DNA from: Spirosoma rhododendri
Lineage (GTDB): Bacteria > Bacteroidota > Bacteroidia > Cytophagales > Spirosomataceae
Length of the DNA stretch: 64,000 nucleotides
Direction of reading: 5' to 3'
Assembly (NCBI RefSeq): GCF_012849055.1
Contig: NZ_CP051677.1
Location: 2,308,501 to 2,372,500, forward strand
Both the position numbers and the translations under genes were made by a program. Numbering within the stretch: the first letter of the stretch is position 1; each line of letters begins with the position of its first letter. Of the stretch, positions 26,251-38,569 are shown piece after piece. A model generated the notes under the pieces. That model worked only from the letters and a program-made list of their open reading frames with translations. It was not told the origin of the DNA and did not search any database.

Positions 26251-26309
26251 GTTAGATTTGGCTGGTGTCGTGGCTGGTTTGCAGGCCGGGCCGGATAATG
26301 GGAACGGAG

Positions 26310-27038
26310 ATGAATATTATTGAAACCAGTCAGATTGCGAAGCGGTACGTTATGGGTACCGAGGTTGTCGAAGCCTTAAAGTCGATTACCATCCAGATCA
26401 AAAAGGGCGAATACGTTGCCTTCATGGGCCCGTCGGGGTCGGGTAAGTCGACGCTGATGAATATTGTCGGCTGTCTGGATACCCCCACGTCGGGCCATTA
26501 TATTCTCAACAACCAGGACGTCAGCCGGATGGGGGAGAACGATCTGGCTGAAGTACGCAATAAAGAGATTGGCTTCGTCTTTCAAACCTTCAACCTGCTG
26601 CCCCGGCAAACCTCGCTCGAAAACGTGGCCCTACCGTTGATTTACGCAGGCTACAATAAAGCCGACCGCACGGAGAAAGCCATGCTGGCCCTGAAAAACG
26701 TCGGGCTGGAAAACCGGGCGCACCACCGCCCCAACGAGCTGTCGGGTGGGCAGCGGCAGCGCGTGGCCGTAGCCCGCGCACTGGTCAACGACCCCAGTAT
26801 TTTACTGGCCGATGAACCGACCGGTAACCTCGACACCCGCACCTCATACGAGATCATGGACCTCTTCGATCAGATTCACAGCAAGGGTAATACCGTGATC
26901 ATGGTCACCCACGAAGAAGACATCGCCGAGTATGCGCACCGTATCATTCGGCTCCGTGACGGCCTGATCGAAACCGACCGTATAAACCCTAACGTTCGCA
27001 AGGTCAATCTACTCATGCAGCCGGCGACAAATAGCTGA
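26310..27038 (+). CDS. ABC transporter ATPase, LolD/MacB type
   Basis: A protein of 242 residues with Walker [10 protein letters not shown], signature [15 protein letters not shown], Walker [13 protein letters not shown] and the H-loop [13 protein letters not shown]. It matches the MacB/LolD/FtsE group, which works with MacB-type or LolCE-type permeases to move lipoproteins, peptides or drugs at the cell envelope. No permease gene is adjacent. An ATG 12 bases upstream and a GTG further up are also possible starts. Its 3' end is inside the segment duplicated near 30.3 kb. Confidence 0.93.
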
Positions 27039-27525
27039 TTCTGCGTAAGCGGTAATCAGGTAGATCGTTCTTTATCAGTGGATTAACCAGGTGTTTTGTT
27101 CATTCATACACAATAACACGTCGTTGATATACAACAAGTCGTATTCGGTACACGAGTGGCCAAGTGCCGACCCAACTGGGTAGTGGCCAATAGATGGGCG
27201 CAGTAGTCTAATAGCTGTGGTGTATTACTACACTTACGCCTATCCCAAAACCACAGTACCCTTGCATGAACCACACCACGCGAATCAACATTCTGTTGAT
27301 CGAAGATGAACCTATTCTGGCCATGGACCTGGCCGACCGGCTGGAAGGAGAAGGCTACCGTGTCATCGGTATTGCTTCCAACGGCCCTAAAGCGCTCGAA
27401 CTTTATCAGACAAACACCGTCGACGTAGTCCTGTGCGACATCGTCATCAAAGGAGAATGGGACGGCATCGAAACTGCCCGCTACCTGCTGGCCGAACGGC
27501 CTGTGCCGCTCATCTACCTGACGGC
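26965..27525 (+). repeat. Source copy of a segmental duplication
   Basis: This stretch, from the last codons of the ABC gene through the intergenic region into the first 85 or so codons of the LytTR regulator, reappears in decayed form at about 30341-30865. The shared words include TATAAACCC/CAACGTTCGCAAGGT, TTGATATACAACAAG and AGTAGTCTAATG. The intact genes here indicate that this is the source. Confidence 0.85.
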
Positions 27526-28024
27526 CATGACCGACCGCGATACGCTGGAACGGGCCAAACACACCTATCCCGCAGCCTACCTGAATAAACCCGTTCAGCT
27601 AGCCAGTCTGCGCACAGCCATTGAATTAGCCATCAACAACGCTGCCGCCCGTCCCGCTTTACCAACACTGGTCGAGCGGGATGGTATGGGGCGGGAAGCG
27701 CTGTTGCAGATAAACAACTGGCTGTATATCAGGGAGAAATATCATTTCGTTCGCGTCGATATGCACGATCTGCTATACCTGGAAGCCGACAACACGCACA
27801 CCAAACTGATTACGACGACCCGCAAGTACATTCTGCGGCTAACGTTGAGCAGCATTCTTGATCGCATCAGTCAGCCCTGGCTGGTCCGCATCCACCGGTC
27901 GTACGCCATCAACATCAATACGGTCGAGTCGTTCAACGATGCTGAGATCAGTGTCGGGTCGCAACTGTTGCCGCTGAGCCGCAGCTGTAAAGACGACTTC
28001 ATGCGTCACTTTCTGTACCGCTAG
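27266..28024 (+). CDS. LytTR-family response regulator
   Basis: A protein of 252 residues with an N-terminal receiver domain and a C-terminal LytTR DNA-binding domain. The receiver has the acidic pair (LIEDEP), phospho-acceptor Asp in VVLCDIVIKG, the Thr of IYLTA and the Lys of YLNKPV. The LytTR part (from about residue 155) has YLEADNTHTKL and LVRIHRSYAININ, typical motifs of the fold. No histidine kinase gene is adjacent. It precedes the curlin genes in the same direction, and phased repeats in the gap downstream make it the likely curli regulator. Confidence 0.93.
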   Translation: MNHTTRINILLIEDEPILAMDLADRLEGEGYRVIGIASNGPKALELYQTNTVDVVLCDIVIKGEWDGIETARYLLAERPVPLIYLTAMTDRDTLERAKHTYPAAYLNKPVQLASLRTAIELAINNAAARPALPTLVERDGMGREALLQINNWLYIREKYHFVRVDMHDLLYLEADNTHTKLITTTRKYILRLTLSSILDRISQPWLVRIHRSYAININTVESFNDAEISVGSQLLPLSRSCKDDFMRHFLYR

Positions 28025-28028
28025 TTCG

Positions 28029-28091
28029 TTCACTGCTGAATCGTTGCGATTCACCTACCAAACGACGTCATTCACTACCATTTCCGGGCAA
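28029..28091 (+). promoter_or_regulatory. Three 21-bp-phased TTCAC direct repeats, candidate LytTR sites
   Basis: TTCACT at 28029, TTCACC at 28050 and TTCACT at 28071 are spaced exactly 21 bases apart; copies 2 and 3 share the extended word ATTCAC(C)TACCA. LytTR regulators such as AgrA and ComE bind pairs of short direct repeats about two helical turns apart. The repeats end 18 bases before a TAnnTTTG element, which fits upstream activation. That the neighbouring LytTR protein binds here is inference. Confidence 0.55.
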
Positions 28092-28108
28092 CCATGATTG
28101 GTCCATCC

Positions 28109-28116
28109 TATATTTG
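28109..28116 (+). promoter_or_regulatory. TAnnTTTG promoter element for the curlin genes
   Basis: TATATTTG fits the Bacteroidota -7 consensus. No clear -33 TTG is present at the usual distance, as expected for a promoter needing an activator. A start of transcription near 28123 would give a leader of about 215 bases before the first curlin gene. Confidence 0.5.
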
Positions 28117-28138
28117 ATTCACTATCCTAACCTCTCCC

Positions 28139-28180
28139 ATGAACAGTATCTACACATTCTTCGCTCCGGCCGCCCAGTAA
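28139..28180 (+). other. Possible 13-codon leader ORF upstream of the curlin genes
   Basis: ATG to TAA, encoding MNSIYTFFAPAAQ, lies just after the predicted transcription start and about 160 bases before the first curlin gene. It could be a regulatory leader peptide or a chance ORF. The remaining bases to 28337 show no other feature I can name. Confidence 0.2.
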
Positions 28181-28337
28181 CCCCGCCGGACTCACTCCGC
28201 CACTTTATCGGTTCGTTTTTAGTCGCTCATCCGGCCAATGCTCTGGCTTGATGAGTTGGGACTTCACTACACCCAATTTGGGCGGACACAGTCTCTTTTT
28301 GTTTGAATTATACTACTGTCAATCAGCAAGTTGAATT

Positions 28338-28742
28338 ATGAAAAATCTCTTTTCTTCGCTGCTGGCCATGCTGACGGCGGCTAGTGCCTTCGGGCAAAAT
28401 AGCGTCAGTATTGTGCAAAACGGCGGTCCCGGCAACTCAGCATCCGTTATTCAGTCGGGTGAAGGCAACAGCGTCAGCATCAGCCAGCGTGGTGGCGCGG
28501 CTACCGATGGCAGTAAGCCCGGCAACCGGGTAAGTCTGCGGGTGCCTCGGGGCACCGAAACGACGATCAACCAGCAAAATGTCGGTTCCAATTCGGTCGA
28601 GATTTCGCAGGAGGGTCAGGCTACGGCGACCATCAATCAGTCGTCGGCGACGGGCGAAAACAGTATTCACACGCTCCCCGGTATGCCCGATAGTCGCTCG
28701 AAAGCCCGTCCATCAAAACGGCGGAATCGGCGGCAGCAGTAA
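28338..28742 (+). CDS. Small curlin-repeat protein with basic C-terminal tail
   Basis: A protein of 134 residues. A signal peptide (ending SAFGQ) is followed by curlin-type repeats in which Asn/Gln and short hydrophobic positions alternate (SVSIVQNGGPGNSASVIQ, then EGNSVSISQRG and TTINQQNVGSNSVEISQ). The last 15 or so residues are strongly basic (SRSKARPSKRRNRRQQ). This resembles the positively charged end of CsgB, which nucleates and anchors curli in E. coli. A minor or nucleating subunit is therefore likely. It precedes the next curlin gene by 30 bases. Confidence 0.85.
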   Translation: MKNLFSSLLAMLTAASAFGQNSVSIVQNGGPGNSASVIQSGEGNSVSISQRGGAATDGSKPGNRVSLRVPRGTETTINQQNVGSNSVEISQEGQATATINQSSATGENSIHTLPGMPDSRSKARPSKRRNRRQQ

Positions 28743-28772
28743 TGTTTTTTACCTTTCTTTTTAACTATCCCA

Positions 28773-30275
28773 ATGAAAAAAGTACTCCTTACCGGCACCG
28801 CGCTGCTGGCTTTTGCAGCCGCAGGCTTTGCCCAGACCAACACCGCCACCACCAATCAGAATGGCGACAAACAAACCGCTAGTCAGACGCAGACGGGCAA
28901 TTACCTAAAGTCGACGATCACCCAGGACAAGCAGGGTGGCACGAACGTCGGCAATTATGCGGGAACGCTTCAAACTAGCACGGGTGCGGCTGGCAATGAA
29001 GCGGTAATCAATCAGAACCTGAACTCAAAGTCGAACCGGGCGGCTGTAACGCAGTCGGGCGGTACGGGTAACAAGGGCACTATCACCCAGAGCAACAACA
29101 GCGGTGGTGGTGAATTGCAGGTGGGCAGCGGAACCACGCCGGCTGATGTGAAAGCAGCAGGTGGCAACTGGTCAGGTATTCTCCAGCAGGGCAGCAACAA
29201 CACCAACACGTACATCATTCAGGGGAATAACGCCAGCAAGAACTTCGGCGAGATTTACCAGTACGGCTCTGCCAACCGCCAGACATCGATTGACCAGTCT
29301 GACAACTCGAACGGCAACACGGCAAAGGTAAACCAGGGGACCAGCAATGCCCCTATCACGAATGGCAGGGTTCAGGTGTCGCAACAGGGCAACAGCCAGG
29401 ATAACGAAGCATACGTAACACAGTTGACAAGCAGCAATGACGCAACTGTCATTCAGAATGATAATAGCCGGGCTAACAAGGCAACTATAAATCAGACGGG
29501 TGGTATTGAATCGACGGCCAAGGTTGAGCAGCGGTATGGTTCGTCTGGTAACACGGCAACCGTTACACAGCAAGAGAGTAGTAATACGGGTACTGTCGAG
29601 CAGAATGAGAATAGTCATGGTAACACAGCTGATATCACGCAGAAAGGCTACGGAGGTGTGGCAACGATTAAGCAGAACACCAACTCCGCAGGCAATAAAG
29701 CATCGATCATGCAGGGTGGTGCCTTTAATCAGGGAGCCATCAATCAGACTAACGCATCTGGTAATAGAGCCGACATCAACCAGAAAGGGTATGAGAACGT
29801 GGCAGCCATCAATCAGACTAAGGCCGCTGGTAACGTAGCCGCCGTTAATCAGAACGGGAATTATAACACGGCAACCATTACTGAGAATTACGCAGATAAC
29901 GGCAAAGCAACCATCAACCAGAGTTTGGTACGGCCCGAAGGTGGTTCGAACACAGCCGAAATCCTGCAAGGCGACGGTTCCACGCACAGCTCCGGAAACA
30001 AGGCAACGATCAATCAGGACTTCAGCAAAAATACAGCGAAGTTGCAGCAGGTGGGAGTTGAGAACACGGCTGACCTGAGCCAAATGATGGGCGATTTCAA
30101 CGTGATTAAAGGTCTTGGCGATAGCCCGTATGCATTGCAGCAGGGAAACAACAATATGCTGAAGGTGACTCAAACTTCGGGTGACGGTACCAGCTCATAT
30201 GTACCCAACACTGCCAACGTAAGCCAGATCGGTAATGGCAACATGACAACGATCCGCCAGATGGGGGTCAATTAG
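28773..30275 (+). CDS. Curlin-repeat protein, 500 aa
   Basis: Secreted protein with signal peptide MKKVLLTGTALLAFAAAG (cleavage near FAQT) and a long array of curlin repeats of about 20-23 residues. The typical unit is seen in NTADITQKGYGGVATIKQ and NRADINQKGYENVAAINQ. Each repeat is expected to form one strand-loop-strand rung of an amyloid beta-solenoid. It is about three times longer than E. coli CsgA. It shares an operon with the small curlin gene upstream and is followed by a hairpin. Confidence 0.92.
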   Translation: MKKVLLTGTALLAFAAAGFAQTNTATTNQNGDKQTASQTQTGNYLKSTITQDKQGGTNVGNYAGTLQTSTGAAGNEAVINQNLNSKSNRAAVTQSGGTGNKGTITQSNNSGGGELQVGSGTTPADVKAAGGNWSGILQQGSNNTNTYIIQGNNASKNFGEIYQYGSANRQTSIDQSDNSNGNTAKVNQGTSNAPITNGRVQVSQQGNSQDNEAYVTQLTSSNDATVIQNDNSRANKATINQTGGIESTAKVEQRYGSSGNTATVTQQESSNTGTVEQNENSHGNTADITQKGYGGVATIKQNTNSAGNKASIMQGGAFNQGAINQTNASGNRADINQKGYENVAAINQTKAAGNVAAVNQNGNYNTATITENYADNGKATINQSLVRPEGGSNTAEILQGDGSTHSSGNKATINQDFSKNTAKLQQVGVENTADLSQMMGDFNVIKGLGDSPYALQQGNNNMLKVTQTSGDGTSSYVPNTANVSQIGNGNMTTIRQMGVN

Positions 30276-30289
30276 TCATTCCGAAGTCA

Positions 30290-30335
30290 TGAATCGGTTA
30301 TGATCGGTGTACTCCTGCCAATCATAACCGATTCA
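30290..30335 (+). terminator. Hairpin after the 500-aa curlin gene
   Basis: A perfect 15-bp stem (TGAATCGGTTATGAT / ATCATAACCGATTCA) begins 15 bases past the stop codon. There is no long T run. Confidence 0.6.
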
Positions 30336-30340
30336 GCAAA

Positions 30341-30865
30341 TGGTCGAAACAGATCGTATAAACCCCAACGTTCGCAAGGTAAATCTACTCGTGCGACCGG
30401 CAACAAGTAGCCGATTCTGCGTGAGCGGCAACAAGGTAGATTGTTCGTCAACAGTGGGTTAGCTAAGTGCTATAATCATTCACACCTGATAAAGCGCAGT
30501 TGATATACAACAAGCTGAGTTTGGTACACGAATGACCAGATGATACCCGAACGAGAAGTGGCGGATGGGTGTGCAGAGTAGTCTAATGGATGTAGTGCAT
30601 CAATACAATTCTTTCTATCCATAACCACAATAAGTACCATGAAAATGTCCGCTCGAATCAACGCTCTGTTGATCGAACATGAACCCGGTCTGGCCATGCA
30701 CCTGACCGACGGGCCGGGAGAAGGCTACCGCGTCGGTATTGCCAGCAAGGGCCCCAAGTCCCCCGAACTTTATCAGACAACCATCGTCGATGTCGCCATC
30801 AAAGGGGGAATAAAACAGCATCGAAACTGCTTGTTACCTGCTGGCCCATGCCGATCAGTCATCTG
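30341..30865 (+). repeat. Decayed copy of the ABC-tail/LytTR segment
   Basis: Related along its length to 26965-27525 with many substitutions and short deletions. It starts in the last codons of the ABC gene (TCGAAACAGATCGTATAAAC), includes the noncoding gap (TTGATATACAACAAGCTGAG) and continues into the regulator N-terminus. Its left edge lies just after the hairpin of the preceding curlin gene. Confidence 0.85.
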
Positions 30866-30872
30866 GCGGTAG
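30639..30872 (+). pseudogene. Truncated LytTR regulator pseudogene
   Basis: A 77-codon frame whose product (INALLIEHEPGLAMHLTDG at the start) aligns to the first 85 residues of the LytTR regulator at 27266. A deletion of about 15 bases has removed the stretch with the phospho-acceptor Asp (VDVAIKGG here, VDVVLCDIVIKG in the parent). The acidic pair is also altered (EHEP for EDEP). The rest of the receiver and the whole DNA-binding domain are missing. It is a remnant of a duplication and is probably not functional. Confidence 0.85.
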
Positions 30873-31298
30873 CACCGAAAACAACGCCTGTCTGAGACAG
30901 CGTAGCGGTGATACAGCTGCTTTTTGCTGGGGGCGTTTAGTTGAGCAGCCTGTGTTATCAGCTGTCGACTCAGGTACATAAGCAACTCACGTAAGCCACT
31001 TACAATTCATGTAAGCCGCGGGCTGTCAATTAGTCGACGCCCACAGGGAATAGTTATGTTCCCGAACGACGATTCGTGTGCCCGAACCGCCCAATATGGG
31101 CTAAGTCGGCCATTCCGAATTTACCCATCGTAGTTCACCGGACAACGCAGGGTAACGCACGTACAACAAGGTGATAACGCTCGCTGGCCAGGAGTCAATC
31201 GCCCAGAGAAAACGCTCTTACGACACAGAAAGGCGCATAAGACGCTAAAAGACCTTACGTTCCAATTCATCCTTTTTTAATTTTTACCATCCAAAACC
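30873..31298 (+). other. 426-base noncoding gap upstream of the third curlin gene
   Basis: No gene was found. It contains the direct repeats at 30976-31016. The last 40 bases are T-rich (CCTTTTTTAATTTTTACC) and probably belong to the leader of the next gene. Part may be eroded coding sequence left by the duplication, but no similarity was recognised by eye. Confidence 0.5.
30976..31016 (+). promoter_or_regulatory. Direct repeats upstream of the third curlin gene
   Basis: ACATAAGC (30976), ACGTAAGC (30989) and ATGTAAGC (31009). The last two, extended to TCACGTAAGCC and TCATGTAAGCC, are 20 bases apart, close to the spacing of LytTR sites. The resemblance to the TTCAC repeats near 28.05 kb is weak. 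Confidence 0.3.
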
Positions 31299-32054
31299 AT
31301 GAAAAAAGTAATTCTTTCTCTTTCTGCTGCATGTGCAATCACCACTGCTTTTGCTCAAAACCAAGCTACCCTCGATCAATCTGGAAATAGCCAACAGGCA
31401 ACAATAAAGCAAGCTGGCCAAAACCAAGCTTTAGTTACACAGAACAACGGGGCAGGAACGGCTGGTGGTAATATCCTAACGTCTAGCCAGACAGGGACCT
31501 TTAACTACCTGAAGTCTACGCAGTCTGGAACGACGAACACAGCCGATTTTAAGCAGTACATGCAGGGTAGTTCGTACGCCACCTCGACTCAAACGGGAAC
31601 CTCAAACAAGATCACATCGGAGCAGGCGAGCATCACCCGTACATCTGCCTCGGGGTATTTCACTCAAGACGGTACCAGCAACGAAGCAACACTCAGCCAG
31701 GTTGACAATGTTGATGGTCAGGGAGGCACACTAGCTACATTTAAGCAAACCGGTAATAGCAACGTAGCATCTATTAAGCAGGGTGATGCGAAAACTGGTG
31801 ACGCGAACACGGCTACCATTACCCAGAACGGTAACTCGAACAAAGCTAAGCTTGAGCAATTAGGCGTTCTGAACAATGCCGACTTTTCTCAAGTTGGCAA
31901 CAGCAACGTAATCAAAGGGTTGAGTGGTGATGTCGCCCTTCAGAACGGTACGTCTAACAACCTCACGATTAGCCAGACCAGTAATTTCAACACTGCTTCG
32001 GTTGGTCAGACTGGCATGGGAAACATGGGCAATATCCAGCAGGGTAACCAATAA
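31299..32054 (+). CDS. Curlin-repeat protein, 251 aa
   Basis: Secreted protein (signal peptide ending TTAFAQ) with curlin repeats through the whole mature part, ending in a final repeat and MGNIQQGNQ. Units such as NKAKLEQLGVLNNADFSQVG and NLTISQTSNFNTASVGQ are clear. The length is closest to a conventional major curlin such as CsgA among the larger paralogs. The start of the gene uses more AT-rich codons than its neighbours. It has its own strong terminator and a long upstream region, so it may be transcribed alone. Assignment as the major subunit is inference. Confidence 0.92.
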   Translation: MKKVILSLSAACAITTAFAQNQATLDQSGNSQQATIKQAGQNQALVTQNNGAGTAGGNILTSSQTGTFNYLKSTQSGTTNTADFKQYMQGSSYATSTQTGTSNKITSEQASITRTSASGYFTQDGTSNEATLSQVDNVDGQGGTLATFKQTGNSNVASIKQGDAKTGDANTATITQNGNSNKAKLEQLGVLNNADFSQVGNSNVIKGLSGDVALQNGTSNNLTISQTSNFNTASVGQTGMGNMGNIQQGNQ

Positions 32055-32222: not shown

Positions 32223-34838
32223 ATGAAGAAAAGTATCCTCACCGGTGTAGCGCTTATGGTTTTTGCCGCAGCAAGCTACGCTCAATCAAATCAGGCTACG
32301 CTCAATCAGGTCGGTAATCAGCAGATAGGAAACGTCACGCAGGTCGGCAATTCGTTACAATCGAACATCCAGCAAACGAGCGCTTCCGGGATTACCAACA
32401 CTGGAAACTACGCTAACACTTCGCAGGCCCCTAACTACTTGCCGTCGTCGTCTAACCAGGCCACTATCAATCAGTTGGGCAACAAGTCTGGTTTCGCTAA
32501 CATAGGCCAGGAAGGTTCCGGCAATACGTCTACCATCAATCAGAATAACAATACAGGTGGCAATGGCATCCAGAGCACAGCGGCCAGCGCACCGGGTACC
32601 GTAGCCGACGCCAACAACGTTCCCAATCAGGCGGGTATCAATGCCGTAACGGGCAACGGAGGCAACTACGCCAATACGTACCAACGGGGGGATAATGAGA
32701 CTGTAACTGTTAACCAGAACAACAGTTCAGCGAGTAACTACACCGATGTCCGGCAAGATGGCGGGGGGGGACAAACGGTAACCGTGAACCAGAACAACAC
32801 CAGTTCTGGCAATAAGACAACCACTAATCAGTTTGGCTTTTCCAACAACCTGAACGTTAGTCAGTCCAACAATTCGTCGGGCAACACGGCGGCTGTTCGC
32901 CAGGGATTCTCGGCGGCTGTGAGTGGCCCAAACACAAACGGAGCGCTGGCTACTGTTGAGCAGAATGGTCTTGTTGGTGGGGCGGCCAGCAGCGGTAACC
33001 AGTCGACAATTAACCAGATCGCAACGGGTGGTGGCACAACGGCGCTCAGTCAGCAAAATGCAGGTGGATTGGGTGCGTCGCTGGGCAACACGGCGCAGAT
33101 CGATCAACGCAATGGTAGTCATCAGGCTACCGTTCAGCAGAATAACAAAAGCACAAACAACACGGGTACCGTGTCGCAGCAGGGTTCGGGCAACGGCGCT
33201 ACCGTTGTTCAGTCTGTGAACAGTGCTGGCAACCGGTCGGCTGTTGTACAAACCGGTACCAATGGTCAGGCCTTTACCAATCAGCTGGGTACATCGGCCA
33301 TTGTCAGCTCGGAAAACAGAATTTCGGTTGATCAGGCGGGTGATCGGCAAACAGCAACGATCAACCAGAATGCCGGCACTAACGGGCCAAGCAGTGGCAA
33401 CCGCAGTACCAGCACGCAGCGGGGAGCACTCAATACAACGACCGTTAACCAGAACGACTGGAGTATAGGAAACCAATCGACAGTAACGCAGTACGGGGCC
33501 GGTACTACTGCCAACACGGTTGTGGTCAACCAATCGGGTACGTCGGCACGGCCCACTGTGAACAACAAGGCAACTGTTTCGCAGGGAACAGCGGCATCTG
33601 CCTGGGATAACAACAGGTCAACGACGTCTCAACTGGGTACTTTCAACGAAGTCACTGTGGCCCAGATAGGTGGCAACAGTAATGCGGTTTCATCTGAACA
33701 GACAGGTAACCAGAACGTATCTACCCACAACCAGAATGGAGCGTCGAACTCGATTGTCGAGTTTACATATGGCAGCAACAACCGGCTTGACGTCATGCAA
33801 GCAGGAACGGCCAACGGAGCCCGGATTCAGATGCTGCCAAACGGTACGGTAGGTGGTAATGATAACAATAACAGCAAGATTGCTCAATCGGGTGCGGCCA
33901 ACTACGCGGAACTGAATCTGAGAGCAGCCAACTCGTCGCTGCCTGGCTCTCCCAACTTCCTGATCGACCAGACAGGTCGGAGCAATTTTGCCAAACTGGA
34001 GGTGCGTGGTAGTTCAGGCACCGGTTCAGGCAATCCCGGCCTGAATAACTCGGTTCAGATTGTTCAATCGGCATCATCGGCAGGCGGTACCCTGGGTCAA
34101 ACGGCCAACGGGTTAGTCTGGGGCGATCAGAACGCGGTAACCATCAATCAGTCGGGCGTTGACGACAACACCATCGGTGGTACAACAACCGGGCAGTATG
34201 GTTTCGAAGTTAAAGGCAACAACAACACGGTTGGCTTAACGCAAAATGGCAACAAAAACAGCATCAACATGGGTATCACCGGTGGTATTGCGGGTCATGG
34301 AAACAAGGTGGCCATTAACCAGACCAACAGCAATAACCAGGTAGGCACAGGGTTCGGTGGTGGCTCAACAGTTACGGATGCCTCTGCCCGAGGGTTGTAC
34401 ATTACCGGCAACGGCAACTCAGTTGACATCAGCCAGGATGGTGGCGACGAAGTAAAAGTACTCCAGAATGGTGATGACAAACTAGTGGTCAAACAGCAGA
34501 ATGGTATGTCGAACGTTGCTCAGTCGAACCGGGTGCTTATTGACCAGGGAGCGGGGAGTCAGGACGCTGCCATTACGCAGAACGGCGCAGGCAACTTTGT
34601 GTACGGCCTGGGCGGTGCGGGCACGTTTGCCGTACAGGGTGGTGGATCGCCCAACAAAGCGGTTGTGACCCAGAGTGCAGCGAACGGTTTTACGAACGAA
34701 CTGCGCCTTAGCCAGATCAGTACGGGTGCTATGAATATGGCAACGGTCACTCAAAATGCAACGGGAGCCAGTAATCTGGCCACAATCAATCAGAATGGGT
34801 CGGGCAATACGGCTACGATCAATCAAGCGGCTAACTAA
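32223..34838 (+). CDS. Giant curlin-repeat protein, 871 aa
   Basis: The signal peptide (MKKSILTGVALMVFAAASYA) is followed by over 800 residues of curlin-type repeats (for example NQSTINQIATGG, NTAQIDQRNGSHQATVQQ and, at the end, NLATINQNGSGNTATINQ). Between about residues 550 and 760 the repeats become less regular, with longer Gly/Asn-rich loops. The product is roughly six times longer than E. coli CsgA. A frame open 22 codons upstream is rejected because the later ATG starts a normal signal peptide. It has separate hairpins before and after it. Confidence 0.9.
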   Translation: MKKSILTGVALMVFAAASYAQSNQATLNQVGNQQIGNVTQVGNSLQSNIQQTSASGITNTGNYANTSQAPNYLPSSSNQATINQLGNKSGFANIGQEGSGNTSTINQNNNTGGNGIQSTAASAPGTVADANNVPNQAGINAVTGNGGNYANTYQRGDNETVTVNQNNSSASNYTDVRQDGGGGQTVTVNQNNTSSGNKTTTNQFGFSNNLNVSQSNNSSGNTAAVRQGFSAAVSGPNTNGALATVEQNGLVGGAASSGNQSTINQIATGGGTTALSQQNAGGLGASLGNTAQIDQRNGSHQATVQQNNKSTNNTGTVSQQGSGNGATVVQSVNSAGNRSAVVQTGTNGQAFTNQLGTSAIVSSENRISVDQAGDRQTATINQNAGTNGPSSGNRSTSTQRGALNTTTVNQNDWSIGNQSTVTQYGAGTTANTVVVNQSGTSARPTVNNKATVSQGTAASAWDNNRSTTSQLGTFNEVTVAQIGGNSNAVSSEQTGNQNVSTHNQNGASNSIVEFTYGSNNRLDVMQAGTANGARIQMLPNGTVGGNDNNNSKIAQSGAANYAELNLRAANSSLPGSPNFLIDQTGRSNFAKLEVRGSSGTGSGNPGLNNSVQIVQSASSAGGTLGQTANGLVWGDQNAVTINQSGVDDNTIGGTTTGQYGFEVKGNNNTVGLTQNGNKNSINMGITGGIAGHGNKVAINQTNSNNQVGTGFGGGSTVTDASARGLYITGNGNSVDISQDGGDEVKVLQNGDDKLVVKQQNGMSNVAQSNRVLIDQGAGSQDAAITQNGAGNFVYGLGGAGTFAVQGGGSPNKAVVTQSAANGFTNELRLSQISTGAMNMATVTQNATGASNLATINQNGSGNTATINQAAN

Positions 34839-34912: not shown

Positions 34913-35311
34913 ATGAAAAACATCATCCTTTTAGGGCTGGCGGCTTTGGGGGCCACATCGGCCACTGCACAAAATACAGCGGTTGTCACGCAGCAGGGTA
35001 ACACGCACGAATTATCGGTTGTGCAGCGTGGCTCGGGCAACACATCGGTGGTTAACCAGACAACTGCCGGGTCTTCAAATAGGGTAGCCATCACGCAGTC
35101 GGGCGCTAATAACGTCACCACTATTAATCAGGGTGGAGAGTCGACCCGCAGTGATACCAGCACGCAAAATACAGTCACGGCAACACAGGCTGGCGAGGGG
35201 GAAACCATCATAAACCAAACCAACGGAGGCAATACGATAAGTGTCTATCAGTCTGGTATGGCCCCCACCGACAAAAAGAAGAAAACCAGCCCAAAGCGGT
35301 CTACAAACTAG
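34913..35311 (+). CDS. Small curlin-repeat protein with Lys-rich tail
   Basis: A protein of 132 residues with a signal peptide (ending ATAQN), a few curlin repeats (NTSVVNQTTAGSSNRVAITQ) and a basic tail after GMAPTD (KKKKTSPKRSTN). Size, N-terminus and tail type match the 134-residue curlin at 28338, so the two are probably paralogs. By analogy with the charged end of CsgB, a nucleating or anchoring subunit is likely. About 170 bases without recognised signals separate it from the next gene. Confidence 0.83.
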   Translation: MKNIILLGLAALGATSATAQNTAVVTQQGNTHELSVVQRGSGNTSVVNQTTAGSSNRVAITQSGANNVTTINQGGESTRSDTSTQNTVTATQAGEGETIINQTNGGNTISVYQSGMAPTDKKKKTSPKRSTN

Positions 35312-35484
35312 TTACGGCGGAGCCGATTACCGACGCTGTCAGACCAGTAAGAGACGAATTCAGGCAATACAGTATCAGGCTATAACAACTCAGTACGGAT
35401 CAGGTAGTTGGCATATTTACGCCAATCGTACCGGCAGTCGATGCGCAATGCTTACTAGGTAGTAACCCAATGTCAGATTTACTC

Positions 35485-36090
35485 ATGAAACGTCTATTTA
35501 TCTTGCTGCTTGGTATGATTTGTGGAACGGCTAGTGCTCAGGTGAATTCAGTTCCAACAAACAGTCTGGATGCTTATTGGAACCTGACTTCGATACCAAA
35601 TCAGGCGCAGGTAAGTTTACAACCGGGTCTGACAAATCTGGCTGGCCTGAGCGGTTCCAGCAATGAGGTTACCGCACGGCAGGATGGCCTCAACAACACA
35701 GCGCAGCTATCCGTTATGGCAGGTTCCCAAAATCAACTGACGCTTACGCAGGCCAACAATGCCAACTACGCAGATGCCACATTGTCGGGCGTCAGCAACA
35801 CCATTGTTATCAATCAAACGGGGGGAAACAACAACCTCGCCTTCGGGCTAAACGGTACCAACAACCGGCTCGCGCTTACGCAGGACGGGGGCGATCGGCT
35901 CCAGATGGTAGGGCTTCAGCAGAACAACACCCGTCTCGAAGTGAATCAGGGGGCTGGTAATAACTCGCTGACTATAGATAATACGACGTTGTTCAAAGAC
36001 GTCAATGGCACCGGTATCCCTAACCTACGCATCGAACAAACGGGGGGCGCTACAGCTACCATCCAGAACGGGCGGATTTTTGGCAATTAA
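35485..36090 (+). CDS. Curlin-like minor subunit upstream of csgE
   Basis: A protein of 201 residues starting MKRLFILLLGMICG with a signal peptide ending ASAQ. Curlin-like repeats are present but irregular (NEVTARQDGLNNTAQLSV, then NTIVINQTGGNNNLAF and NRLALTQDGG). The mature N-terminus carries a non-repeat segment with Trp (NSLDAYWNLTSIPNQ). It stops four bases before csgE, so the two are co-translated. A role as a CsgB-like nucleator or minor subunit is inferred. An in-frame ATG 15 bases upstream is possible. Confidence 0.83.
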   Translation: MKRLFILLLGMICGTASAQVNSVPTNSLDAYWNLTSIPNQAQVSLQPGLTNLAGLSGSSNEVTARQDGLNNTAQLSVMAGSQNQLTLTQANNANYADATLSGVSNTIVINQTGGNNNLAFGLNGTNNRLALTQDGGDRLQMVGLQQNNTRLEVNQGAGNNSLTIDNTTLFKDVNGTGIPNLRIEQTGGATATIQNGRIFGN

Positions 36091-36094
36091 AGCG

Positions 36095-36619
36095 ATGACG
36101 ACCTTACGTAACCTACTGCTCATTTGTCTGGTGCTGCTCCAGCTGGTCTGCCGGGCACAGGACCCAGATCTGGACGGCAAACTCATTGAGGAGACAATGA
36201 GCGAAGCAGTTATAGCCGAAGAGGGAACCGAGACATTGCTGCTCGACAACACCCGGTCAAAAATCGGGCGTGATTTCTACGAAGCATTCTTCCGGTATTA
36301 CGCCGAGCTTCCCAAAGCAGCGTCGCCCGCCCTGATGCCCGCTGACAGTACGGTTAAAGTAACGCCCAACCTTGAACTGGATATCAACGCGTTTATCGTC
36401 ACCATTGAGGAACTGCCTGCTTTTGGCGTTGGCACGAGCATCATATCTATCTCCCTGAACGACCAGCTTATCTGGCAGAATTACATACAGGCCCGGCAGG
36501 ATGTCCTCGAAGCGTACGCCCTCAATGCGGCTGAGACAATCAACCAGTACGTTGTCAATTATCAGGAAGTGCAACGATCACTGGAAAGCGACGACCAAAA
36601 GGGAAGTGGCATGTTTTAA
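36095..36619 (+). CDS. csgE: Curli assembly factor CsgE
   Basis: A periplasmic protein of 174 residues with a signal peptide (ending CRAQ). In E. coli, CsgE caps the CsgG channel and delivers curlin subunits to it. The conserved part runs from about residue 45 (SKIGRDFYEAFFRYYAEL) and includes FIVTIEELPAFGVGTSI and LIWQNYIQARQDVLEAYA, matching CsgE. It is longer than the E. coli form (129 residues) because of an N-terminal extension. The frame is open 30 codons upstream inside the preceding gene, but the later ATG gives a signal peptide. Confidence 0.94.
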   Translation: MTTLRNLLLICLVLLQLVCRAQDPDLDGKLIEETMSEAVIAEEGTETLLLDNTRSKIGRDFYEAFFRYYAELPKAASPALMPADSTVKVTPNLELDINAFIVTIEELPAFGVGTSIISISLNDQLIWQNYIQARQDVLEAYALNAAETINQYVVNYQEVQRSLESDDQKGSGMF

Positions 36620-36651: not shown

Positions 36652-37074
36652 ATGAAAAAACTTTTACTGGCAGCCTTCTTACTGATTGGTTTAGCCGCAC
36701 GTTCATCAGCGCAATCGTTCGTGTACCACCCCAACAACCCCAACTTCGGCGGTAACACGTTCAACTATTCCTGGATGCTAAGCCAGGCTCAGGCCCAGGA
36801 TCGTAACGTCGATCCTACAGCCAGACGGACAGCATTCGCCAGTAGTACGTCCAACAGTGCGCTCTCAACGTTTGCCCAGAATTTACAGAATCAGCTGCTA
36901 AGCCGAATCACCAATAATCTGTTGAGCAAGCAATTTGGGGAGTCGTCTTTGCAGCCGGGCACGTACAAGTTCGGCGATTTTCAGGTCGAAATATCGAATG
37001 GTACGGATGGTATCGTTCTGCGGATCGTGGATGGAAAAGGGGGCGAGACGTCAATTACGATTCCTTATTTCTGA
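36652..37074 (+). CDS. csgF: Curli assembly factor CsgF
   Basis: A protein of 140 residues, signal peptide ending SSAQ. The mature N-terminus YHPNNPNFGGNTFNYSW followed by LSQAQAQ is the signature segment of CsgF, which in E. coli inserts into the CsgG channel and couples secretion to nucleation at the cell surface. The C-terminal half (GDFQVEISNGTDGIVLRIVD) forms the expected beta domain. It lies 32 bases behind csgE and 79 before csgG. Confidence 0.95.
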   Translation: MKKLLLAAFLLIGLAARSSAQSFVYHPNNPNFGGNTFNYSWMLSQAQAQDRNVDPTARRTAFASSTSNSALSTFAQNLQNQLLSRITNNLLSKQFGESSLQPGTYKFGDFQVEISNGTDGIVLRIVDGKGGETSITIPYF

Positions 37075-37153: not shown

Positions 37154-38569
37154 ATGAATCCACGCGCTTCAAAAGCGGTTCAGGTACTACTCCTGAGCAA
37201 CTTAGCCAGTCTTTTAGCCGGCTGTACCGCTTTTTTTTATCAACCAACAGAAGCCCGGCGCGCTCGTCTGGGCGAAGAAACACCCGTAACCAGTAGTCTA
37301 CGCCAACTGCCTGCTGCTAAAGAAAAGCTGGTAGCGGCCGTGTACAAATTCCGGGATTTGACAGGTCAGTACAAACAGACAGAAACCGGGACTGGCTTCT
37401 CAACCGCTGTTACGCAGGGAACCACGAACATCCTGCTCAAAGCACTCGAAGAGAGCGGCTGGTTTGTGGCCATTGAGCGGGAAAACGTCAGTAACCTGCT
37501 CAATGAGCGCAAGATTGTCCGCTCCAGCGTGGCGCAATTTAAAGATGGCGAAAACCTGCCCCCGCTTCTCTTCGCCGGGATTATTCTGGAGGGTGGTGTG
37601 GTTTCGTACGATGCCAACATCATCACGGGTGGCGGTGGTCTGCAATACTTTGGCGCGGGTGGATCAACTCAGTATCGTCAGGATCGGGTAACGGTTTATC
37701 TGCGTGCGGTATCCACAAAATCCGGAAAGATTCTCAAAACCATCTACACCTCGAAAACCATCCTGTCGCAGACGGTCAACGCCAGCCTGTTTCGCTATGT
37801 GACGTTCAAGCGATTGCTGGAAACCGAAACCGGCCTGACCACCACCGAACCGGGACAAATGGCCGTAACGGAAGCCATCGAGAAAGCCGTCGAGGGGCTG
37901 ATCATCGAGGGCGTGCGCGACGGGCTGTGGGCTGCCGAAGCCAAGCAGGCCGGGCCGATGAAGCGGGTTGTCGATGCGTACGAAGCCGAGAAGACCCGGA
38001 TGAGCGAAACCGACGTGTATGGCATCCGTCCCGAAATCGACGCGCCCCTCGTTACGCTACAGCCCTACGCCGGGGTCATGCGTTACTACGGTGACTACGC
38101 CCGGCACACGATGAAAGGCGTTTATGGCGCGTCGCTGGACGTGTTTTTTACTTCGAAATTCGGCCTACAGGCCAATGCTGCAACGGGTACGCTCGCCAGT
38201 GAAGGGGCCTTCTCGACCCGCATAACATCGCTGGAGGGCAACCTGATCTTCCGGCCGACACCATTTCAGCACTGGACCTCGCTGCTCTTCATTGGTGCGG
38301 GCATGGTGTCGCGGGCGGGCAGCGGACCTTTGAATCTACAGGGCGACCGCTACTTGCAGGTGCAGGGGGGCGCGGGTATTCAGTATTCGACAAACGGGCT
38401 GTTTGGCTTTCGCTCGACCATCTCCTATAACCAGCCGTTTACCGACGCGCTCGACGGTATTGTGGCCGGAGACCGCAACGACTATTATCTGCGCGGTACG
38501 CTGGGCCTGACGCTGAACATTGGCAGTATCTACCGACCTAAACGTACCCCCGTCAAAACTCGTAAATAA
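37154..38569 (+). CDS. csgG: Curli secretion channel CsgG with C-terminal barrel-like extension
   Basis: An outer-membrane lipoprotein of 471 residues with lipobox LAGC. Residues about 50-285 match CsgG, the nonameric secretion channel: VAAVYKFRDLTGQYK, SGWFVAIERENVSNLLNERK and TSKTILSQTVNASLFRYVTF are all recognisable. E. coli CsgG is 277 residues and ends here. The remaining 185 residues or so have alternating strand-like segments (QPYAGVMRYYGDYA, YLQVQGGAGIQYSTNG, YYLRGTLGLTLNIG) that look like an eight-stranded outer-membrane barrel. Whether this part is a barrel, and what it does, is inference. Confidence 0.93.
   Translation: MNPRASKAVQVLLLSNLASLLAGCTAFFYQPTEARRARLGEETPVTSSLRQLPAAKEKLVAAVYKFRDLTGQYKQTETGTGFSTAVTQGTTNILLKALEESGWFVAIERENVSNLLNERKIVRSSVAQFKDGENLPPLLFAGIILEGGVVSYDANIITGGGGLQYFGAGGSTQYRQDRVTVYLRAVSTKSGKILKTIYTSKTILSQTVNASLFRYVTFKRLLETETGLTTTEPGQMAVTEAIEKAVEGLIIEGVRDGLWAAEAKQAGPMKRVVDAYEAEKTRMSETDVYGIRPEIDAPLVTLQPYAGVMRYYGDYARHTMKGVYGASLDVFFTSKFGLQANAATGTLASEGAFSTRITSLEGNLIFRPTPFQHWTSLLFIGAGMVSRAGSGPLNLQGDRYLQVQGGAGIQYSTNGLFGFRSTISYNQPFTDALDGIVAGDRNDYYLRGTLGLTLNIGSIYRPKRTPVKTRK

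Follow-up and report, generated by a model that had tools for sequence, protein, structure and literature searches.

Three TTCAC repeats stand ahead of the first two curlin genes in a curli locus of Spirosoma rhododendri, and we read them as a LytTR operator at the promoter of these two genes. On this reading, to which we assign a probability of roughly 0.83, the window (the whole stretch of 64,000 nucleotides that was analysed) holds an activator-dependent curli promoter with a triple LytTR operator that is bound by the neighbouring regulator, the kinase of that regulator having probably been split off. What we observe directly is the geometry of the sequence, the extent to which it is conserved, its presence beside LytTR genes and the lack of a TTG at -33; binding, phosphorylation, activation and the pairing with a kinase are what we infer. 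In the proposed mechanism, a TPR-HisKA_2 kinase, now encoded elsewhere, probably phosphorylates the REC-LytTR regulator, which would then bind three TTCAC-centred sites that are spaced by two helical turns and face the same side of the DNA. From there, some 50 to 92 bases upstream of the start, the regulator would bring RNA polymerase to a promoter of the TAnnTTTG kind lacking a -33 TTG, and this recruitment would switch curlin transcription on.

Matches above cut-off to PF07012, PF10627, PF10614 and PF03783 identify the window as a curli (type VIII secretion) locus. An ABC ATPase gene is followed by the gene for a REC-LytTR regulator (PF00072, 67.2 bits; PF04397, 57 bits; both above the curated Pfam cut-offs), by two curlin-repeat genes, by further curlin-type genes and then by csgE, csgF and csgG. 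The preliminary description had placed the LytTR gene immediately upstream of the curlin genes, and the Pfam domains and coordinates agree: a gap of 313 bases lies between the stop of the LytTR gene (28024) and the first curlin start (28338). The features are listed below, L, G and C numbers being our handles for loci, genomes and contigs.

26298..27038, + strand: ABC transporter ATPase gene (Pfam ABC_tran), a conserved upstream neighbour, also in L098 and L109
27266..28024, + strand: response regulator of 252 aa with REC and LytTR domains (PF00072 and PF04397 above cut-off), the proposed activator
28029..28033, + strand: core TTCAC of the putative distal operator repeat, at about -92
28050..28054, + strand: core TTCAC of the putative middle operator repeat, at about -71
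28071..28075, + strand: core TTCAC of the putative proximal operator repeat, at about -50
28109..28116, + strand: predicted -7 element TATATTTG (TAnnTTTG consensus); the first T of the proximal repeat lies 38 bases before it
28117..28337, + strand: presumed start region and untranslated leader of about 217 nt, placed from the -7 element
28338..28742, + strand: first curlin-repeat gene, 134 aa (Pfam Curlin_rpt), with 64-74% identical relatives in L089, L094 and L097
28773..30275, + strand: second curlin-repeat gene, 500 aa (Pfam Curlin_rpt)
30341..30846, + strand: decayed 74% copy of 26965-27493 (ABC tail, intergenic stretch and 5' part of the LytTR gene)
31299..32054, + strand: third curlin-repeat gene, 251 aa (Pfam Curlin_rpt)
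32223..34838, + strand: fourth curlin-type gene, 871 aa (by motif count, 17 QxGxxN-type motifs)
34913..35311, + strand: curlin-repeat gene, 132 aa (Pfam Curlin_rpt)
35470..36090, + strand: curlin-like gene, 206 aa (by motif count, 4 motifs)
36005..36619, + strand: csgE (Pfam CsgE; longest frame, the true start may be further in)
36652..37074, + strand: csgF (Pfam CsgF)
37154..38569, + strand: csgG (Pfam CsgG)

The three repeats lie where they had been reported, at 28029, 28050 and 28071 with a pitch of exactly 21. The 18-base gap given earlier between the last repeat and the promoter element had to be corrected, as the third repeat ends 33 bases before TATATTTG (28109-28116). Two extra copies of TTCAC in the gap, at 28118 and 28263, are both out of register. 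The TAnnTTTG sequence is that of the Flavobacterium -7 box, which spans -12 to -5 (excerpts of PMC9723704; the papers cited below are likewise drawn on in part). Placed on this Flavobacterium scale, transcription would begin near 28121 and the repeats near -50, -71 and -92. The layout predicted for an operator, direct repeats about two helical turns apart and upstream of the core promoter, is thus present in the window, and it is conserved. No Rfam match up to an E value of 1 was found in window positions 26900-31400.

Upstream of the LytTR gene itself, TACAC, TATAC and TACAC occur 21 bases apart at 27107, 27128 and 27149 (window 27107-27153). The spacing of the 27128/27149 pair is retained in the decayed copy (30504/30525) and in L098, and it is not found in L083 or L109; possibly these repeats are an autoregulatory site of the LytTR gene. 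No sign of autoregulation through TTYAC pairs was seen: in the window, G002 and G014, the 300 bases preceding the regulator gene contain none at 21 bases, this stretch being largely kinase gene in G002 and G014.

To compare curli loci, we relied on csgF, which gave 22 matches in 15 of the 36 genus genomes and 54 matches in 47 of the 222 family genomes, the genus included. All 54 csgF stretches, together with Fibrella aquatilis (L031), where a 75% identical LytTR orthologue has a curlin gene behind it and the stretch holds no csgF, make up the 55 curli loci. A LytTR gene directly adjoins the first curlin gene in seven of the 55. In four of these, which we call type A (the window, L089, L097 and L031), the LytTR and first curlin genes are co-directional; in the other three, type B (L093, L095 and L096), the LytTR gene is divergent and its product is about 35% identical to that of the window. 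In the LytTR tree, type A forms one clade (support 100/99) nested in a group to which several paralogues with the site also belong, and type B forms a separate clade (100/100); L029, the sequence of which is truncated, is absent from the trees, and the final tree is also without L035, L038, L041, L042 and L120. Since L093 and L095 are near-identical, the independent examples are fewer than the loci. The type B receivers begin VLLISHDT or VLLISPDT, and the two that were scanned score 41 and 38 bits with Pfam Response_reg vs 67 for the window; given this start and these lower scores, phosphorylation may be altered in type B regulators.

Several further loci carry traces of the arrangement. G025 (L098) and L083, the second curli locus of the window's genome, have only decayed 5' LytTR remnants, similar to the decayed copy at window 30341-30846, and are missing the first two curlin genes. 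In G013 (L109; no csgF was found in this genome) the LytTR frame at the syntenic position stops prematurely, and curlin genes are missing from there up to a gene that we take to be PIN-like and that in the window lies beyond the curli operon; it is as if one deletion (L109, 7033-9138) had removed both the curli operon and the DNA-binding domain. These cases look like single deletions and not like independent losses. In L120 a LytTR gene lies about 3.5 kb from the curlin genes, and the operator was not seen there.

Where the LytTR-curlin order is kept, so are the repeats, the point on which the preliminary description had staked its proposal: the three other type A loci show the same 21-base pitch and the same 38-base distance to the -7 element, with two sites in L097 and three each in L089 and L031. 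In L031 a terminator-like hairpin (recognised by eye) and about 100 extra bases separate regulator and promoter, and the operator-promoter block is intact. The type B loci, with their distant LytTR lineage, keep the same geometry beside their curlins; their -7 element, CACCTTTG, differs by one base, and their sites resemble TTCAC less closely. Across 15 promoters the consensus of the proximal site is roughly cCGTTGTTCACtGC.

To put numbers on this geometry, we scored 140 curlin upstream regions of 600 bases each, anchoring the proximal repeat 38 bases before the -7 element and stepping by 21. As the motif count misses small curlin genes, we entered the curlin starts manually for the seven LytTR loci and for L094. 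Three sites were present in six regions and two in L097; these coincide precisely with the seven that adjoin a LytTR gene, and the other 133 curlin upstream regions of 600 bases all have fewer than two sites. Among 620 combinations of offset and spacing, (38,21) gives six three-site regions, (31,21) gives two, five combinations give one and 613 give none; by the less sharp criterion of two sites out of three, (38,21) gives seven vs a mean of 1.2 (maximum 6). Since we had derived this geometry from the window and the relatives looked at first, and counted it afterwards, the counts are partly post hoc and have descriptive, not predictive, value.

The entire stretches of the 55 family curli loci were also scanned in both orientations, 1.75 million bases in all when each strand is counted. 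The strict cut yields nine matches, all before curlin genes, vs a mean of 0.1 (maximum 1) at 15 other spacings: the window, L089, L093, L095, L097, L031, L124, L127 and L129. The looser cut gives 12 matches, ten of them before curlins, vs a mean of 0.7 (maximum 3), and adds L096, before its curlin gene, as well as L100 and L123; these last two are not before curlin genes, and we take them to be chance matches and not operators. Six of the seven LytTR-adjacent loci are therefore recovered at the strict cut and the seventh, L096, at the looser one. G016 (L094) has a related first curlin gene (70%), no LytTR gene in the stretch and no anchored operator; without the anchor, the kilobase upstream contains two triples, each having two weak sites, which we estimate to be about the chance level.

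The design of the promoter bears on whether the regulator would activate or repress. A TTG 17-23 bases upstream of TAnnTTTG is found in none of the four type A promoters, whereas TTG-N19-TAnnTTTG is found in six of the seven LytTR-less genus loci that have TAnnTTTG (whole intergenic regions of 14 of the 16 LytTR-less loci, L084 and L086 not being included). This contrast is a weak result, with a p of 0.015 if the loci were independent, which, being related, they are not; in the 600-base first-curlin regions the -33 TTG count (0/7 vs 5/46) is not informative, L132 and L141 being dropped from it for want of a recognised curlin start. The missing TTG is consistent with an activator taking the place of the -33 contact. 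Furthermore, most LytTR regulators bind upstream of -35 and activate (excerpts of PMC11347149). The strongest competitor of our reading, which we nevertheless consider improbable, is that binding of the regulator to the repeats shuts the curlin promoter down, in the manner of CoxC, a repressor that likewise uses three repeats at two-turn spacing (same excerpts). The CoxC operator overlaps the -35 box, however, while the proximal repeat of the window ends 33 bases before the -7 element, and the lack of a -33 TTG in four type A promoters is what one expects of activator-dependent promoters; the position of the operator and the missing TTG together make us favour activation over repression.

The same layout recurs at LytTR genes that have nothing to do with curlins, which ties the site to the regulator. 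Behind the regulator gene at 27 non-curlin LytTR loci of the genus, pairs of TTYAC peak at 21 bases (eight pairs in six loci; shuffle mean 0.05, none of 300 shuffles as high), and there is no other peak. Among 36 non-curlin LytTR loci, the best geometries of those scanned are (38,21), with six loci, and (37,21), with five, the next reaching four; one of these cases is from Hymenobacter cavernae (L040).

The layout also reaches curlin genes that have no LytTR neighbour. Genus g33 (apparently Siphonobacter), which belongs to the same family, has three csgF loci, L124, L127 and L129; their first curlin gene is 40-46% identical to that of the window, and their operator lies about 480 bases upstream of it with no LytTR gene adjoining. 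The 600-base limit of the upstream regions had missed these three operators, and the longer stretches contradict the view that the operator is confined to LytTR-adjacent loci. Each g33 genome has one clearly closest LytTR homologue (54-56%; next matches at most 40%), and the same layout lies about 700 bases upstream of its gene. Adjacency is thus not required: the operator appears to be wider than the LytTR-curlin arrangement, and the regulator could act from elsewhere in the genome. The letters after the g33 -7 box are conserved (AGATCGCCGCC in L124 and L127, AGATCGCCGCA in L129), and the long stretch between operator and curlin gene is possibly a leader or a small RNA.

These loci bear on a second alternative, slightly less probable than repression, in which another regulator, for example a LuxR/CsgD-type protein or a LytTR paralogue, targets the repeats and the adjacent LytTR gene is a bystander. 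The window's genome does encode other LytTR proteins, a LuxR-type response regulator lies near the L095 curli locus, and the three g33 loci have the operator in the absence of a LytTR neighbour. A csgD homologue has been reported for Spirosoma (excerpts of PMC3521004), so a CsgD-like protein may act in the window's genus as well. No csgD (LuxR-type) was seen among the ten window proteins scanned with Pfam. Yet the operator is present in all seven curli loci with a LytTR neighbour, other LytTR genes beside unrelated genes have the same site, the closest LytTR homologue of g33 is itself near such a site, and G016, which retains LytTR paralogues elsewhere, has no anchored operator. On comparative grounds the case for an operator is strong, and the LytTR protein encoded next to the window repeats appears by far the likeliest to bind them.

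The exact triple, TTCAC at a pitch of 21 bases, is unique in the window and also in the 6.05-Mb genome from which the window comes, and it appears in none of 100 dinucleotide shuffles of the window. Of the 36 genus genomes, 12 contain it, with 18 matches in total, several being plain tandem repeats, vs no match for the reversed-pattern control. That the repeats are due to chance, or are functionless remnants of shared descent, is hardly credible: short as the motif is, and though some genus matches are plain tandem repeats, the shuffles and the reversed pattern yielded nothing, and the geometry is kept despite diverged flanks in two genera and beside LytTR lineages only about 35% identical.

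Exact triples were also found at four other loci of the genus with no LytTR gene recognised nearby (L104, L105, L106 and L108). In L105 (G007:C4) and L106 (G017:C10) the 21-base triple precedes similar, apparently secreted protein genes, the products of which have A/P/T-rich N-terminal parts, and no LytTR gene was recognised among the listed frames. In L107 (G029) and L027 (G005) the operator layout lies between a LytTR gene and a following operon; the first product of this operon is presumably of the ThiJ/PfpI type. Six loci (L008, L009, L011, L012, L013 and L014) have a candidate small RNA about 150-300 bases past the LytTR stop, with a LytTR-type promoter ahead of it in all but L008. It comprises a conserved CTTCCTC (TTTCCTC in L012), a hairpin, in which three of ten pairs are changed on both sides yet kept among five sequences, and then a terminator-like hairpin with a T-run; the five of the six loci that were scanned have no Rfam match at the gathering cut-off.

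Beyond the family, 58 csgF loci from elsewhere in the order were compared, and none has a LytTR gene 1 kb or less from a curlin gene; curlins were recognised in 51 of these, and the sole LytTR frame there is about 7 kb away. Two weak sites were found in 2 of 70 curlin upstream regions, and the whole-stretch scan gave no strict and one loose match (control mean 0.9). With 0/58 such loci and no strict operator match, we discarded the idea of order-wide LytTR control of curli; the putative LytTR-curli arrangement is known here only from this family, the Spirosomataceae.

The regulator had been called an orphan. For its neighbourhood this stands, since no kinase gene is seen beside it; for the system it probably does not. 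In L031, L089 and L097 a TPR-HisKA_2 kinase gene lies directly upstream of the regulator gene, a place that in the window is occupied by the ABC gene. The window's genome encodes a full-length 62% relative of this kinase at G000:C1:4698024-4700030, and the 5-kb stretch around it contains no LytTR frame. The next kinase match in this genome reaches 50% over part of the length, and the next LytTR match 42%, leaving aside a decayed copy on contig C2. Because the kinase adjoins the regulator in three relatives and stands alone in the window's genome, the simplest reading is that the supposed orphan and the TPR-HisKA_2 kinase are probably a split pair.

Taking the loci together, we find it fairly likely that the HisKA_2-LytTR system is a dedicated curli switch in Spirosoma/Fibrella and g33 that fills the enteric role of CsgD. 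The means would be an invariant module, three sites 21 bases apart with the nearest lying 38 bases ahead of a -7 element that lacks a -33 TTG; it would serve two anciently diverged LytTR-curli units, and other members of the regulator family would use it for small RNAs and unrelated operons. The 2012 curli survey did not settle how curli are controlled in the absence of the enteric CsgD arrangement; it reports the Bacteroidetes, Spirosoma excepted, to be without csgD and proposes alternative regulatory pathways (PMC3521004, in part). Our finding puts forward a named regulator and a candidate kinase, places the operator at exact coordinates and specifies how the promoter is built, and the layout provides a rule for locating further targets of the LytTR family. 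In the openly accessible literature, judged largely by titles and the openings of abstracts, we found no report of LytTR control of curli; in the part of PMC3161979 drawn on here, LytTR and curli are mentioned separately.

The curli of Enterobacteriales share the curlin genes and csgE, csgF and csgG with the window, but are controlled by CsgD, a different activator encoded in csgDEFG; judging from the sequences compared, these environmental bacteria probably turn on their biofilm fibres by another kind of switch than E. coli does. Among LytTR systems, AgrA of Staphylococcus aureus is likewise a LytTR response regulator acting on direct repeats upstream of promoters, with two repeats per promoter, a suboptimal -35/-10 spacing and other targets (excerpts of PMC4227749), whereas the window promoter has no -33 TTG. 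The LRS of S. mutans (HdrR, BrsR) and the LRS-like operons of Bacteroides have direct repeats 11-13 bases apart just upstream of the promoter and work by activation; their operators are pairs of repeats and autoregulatory (excerpts of PMC6193735), while that of the window is a triple before curlins. In LRS of the S. mutans type a membrane inhibitor gene lies by the regulator gene, whereas the window regulator has a REC domain and an ABC ATPase gene and curlin genes for neighbours. Closest in layout are RcoM1, with three direct repeats beginning TT and 12-13 bases apart (TTCNNGCA), and CoxC, with three direct repeats beginning TT at an 18-21-base pitch, each at its target promoter, CoxC acting as a repressor (excerpts of PMC11347149). 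These two, at cox promoters, have other sensor domains and other targets, in contrast to the REC-LytTR regulator, TTCAC core, Bacteroidota TAnnTTTG promoter and curlin genes of the window. LytTR operators, including those with three repeats two turns apart (RcoM1 and CoxC, PMC11347149, in part), are thus already known; what is new is the use of such an operator at curli, in the promoter layout given here, in two LytTR lineages and two genera.
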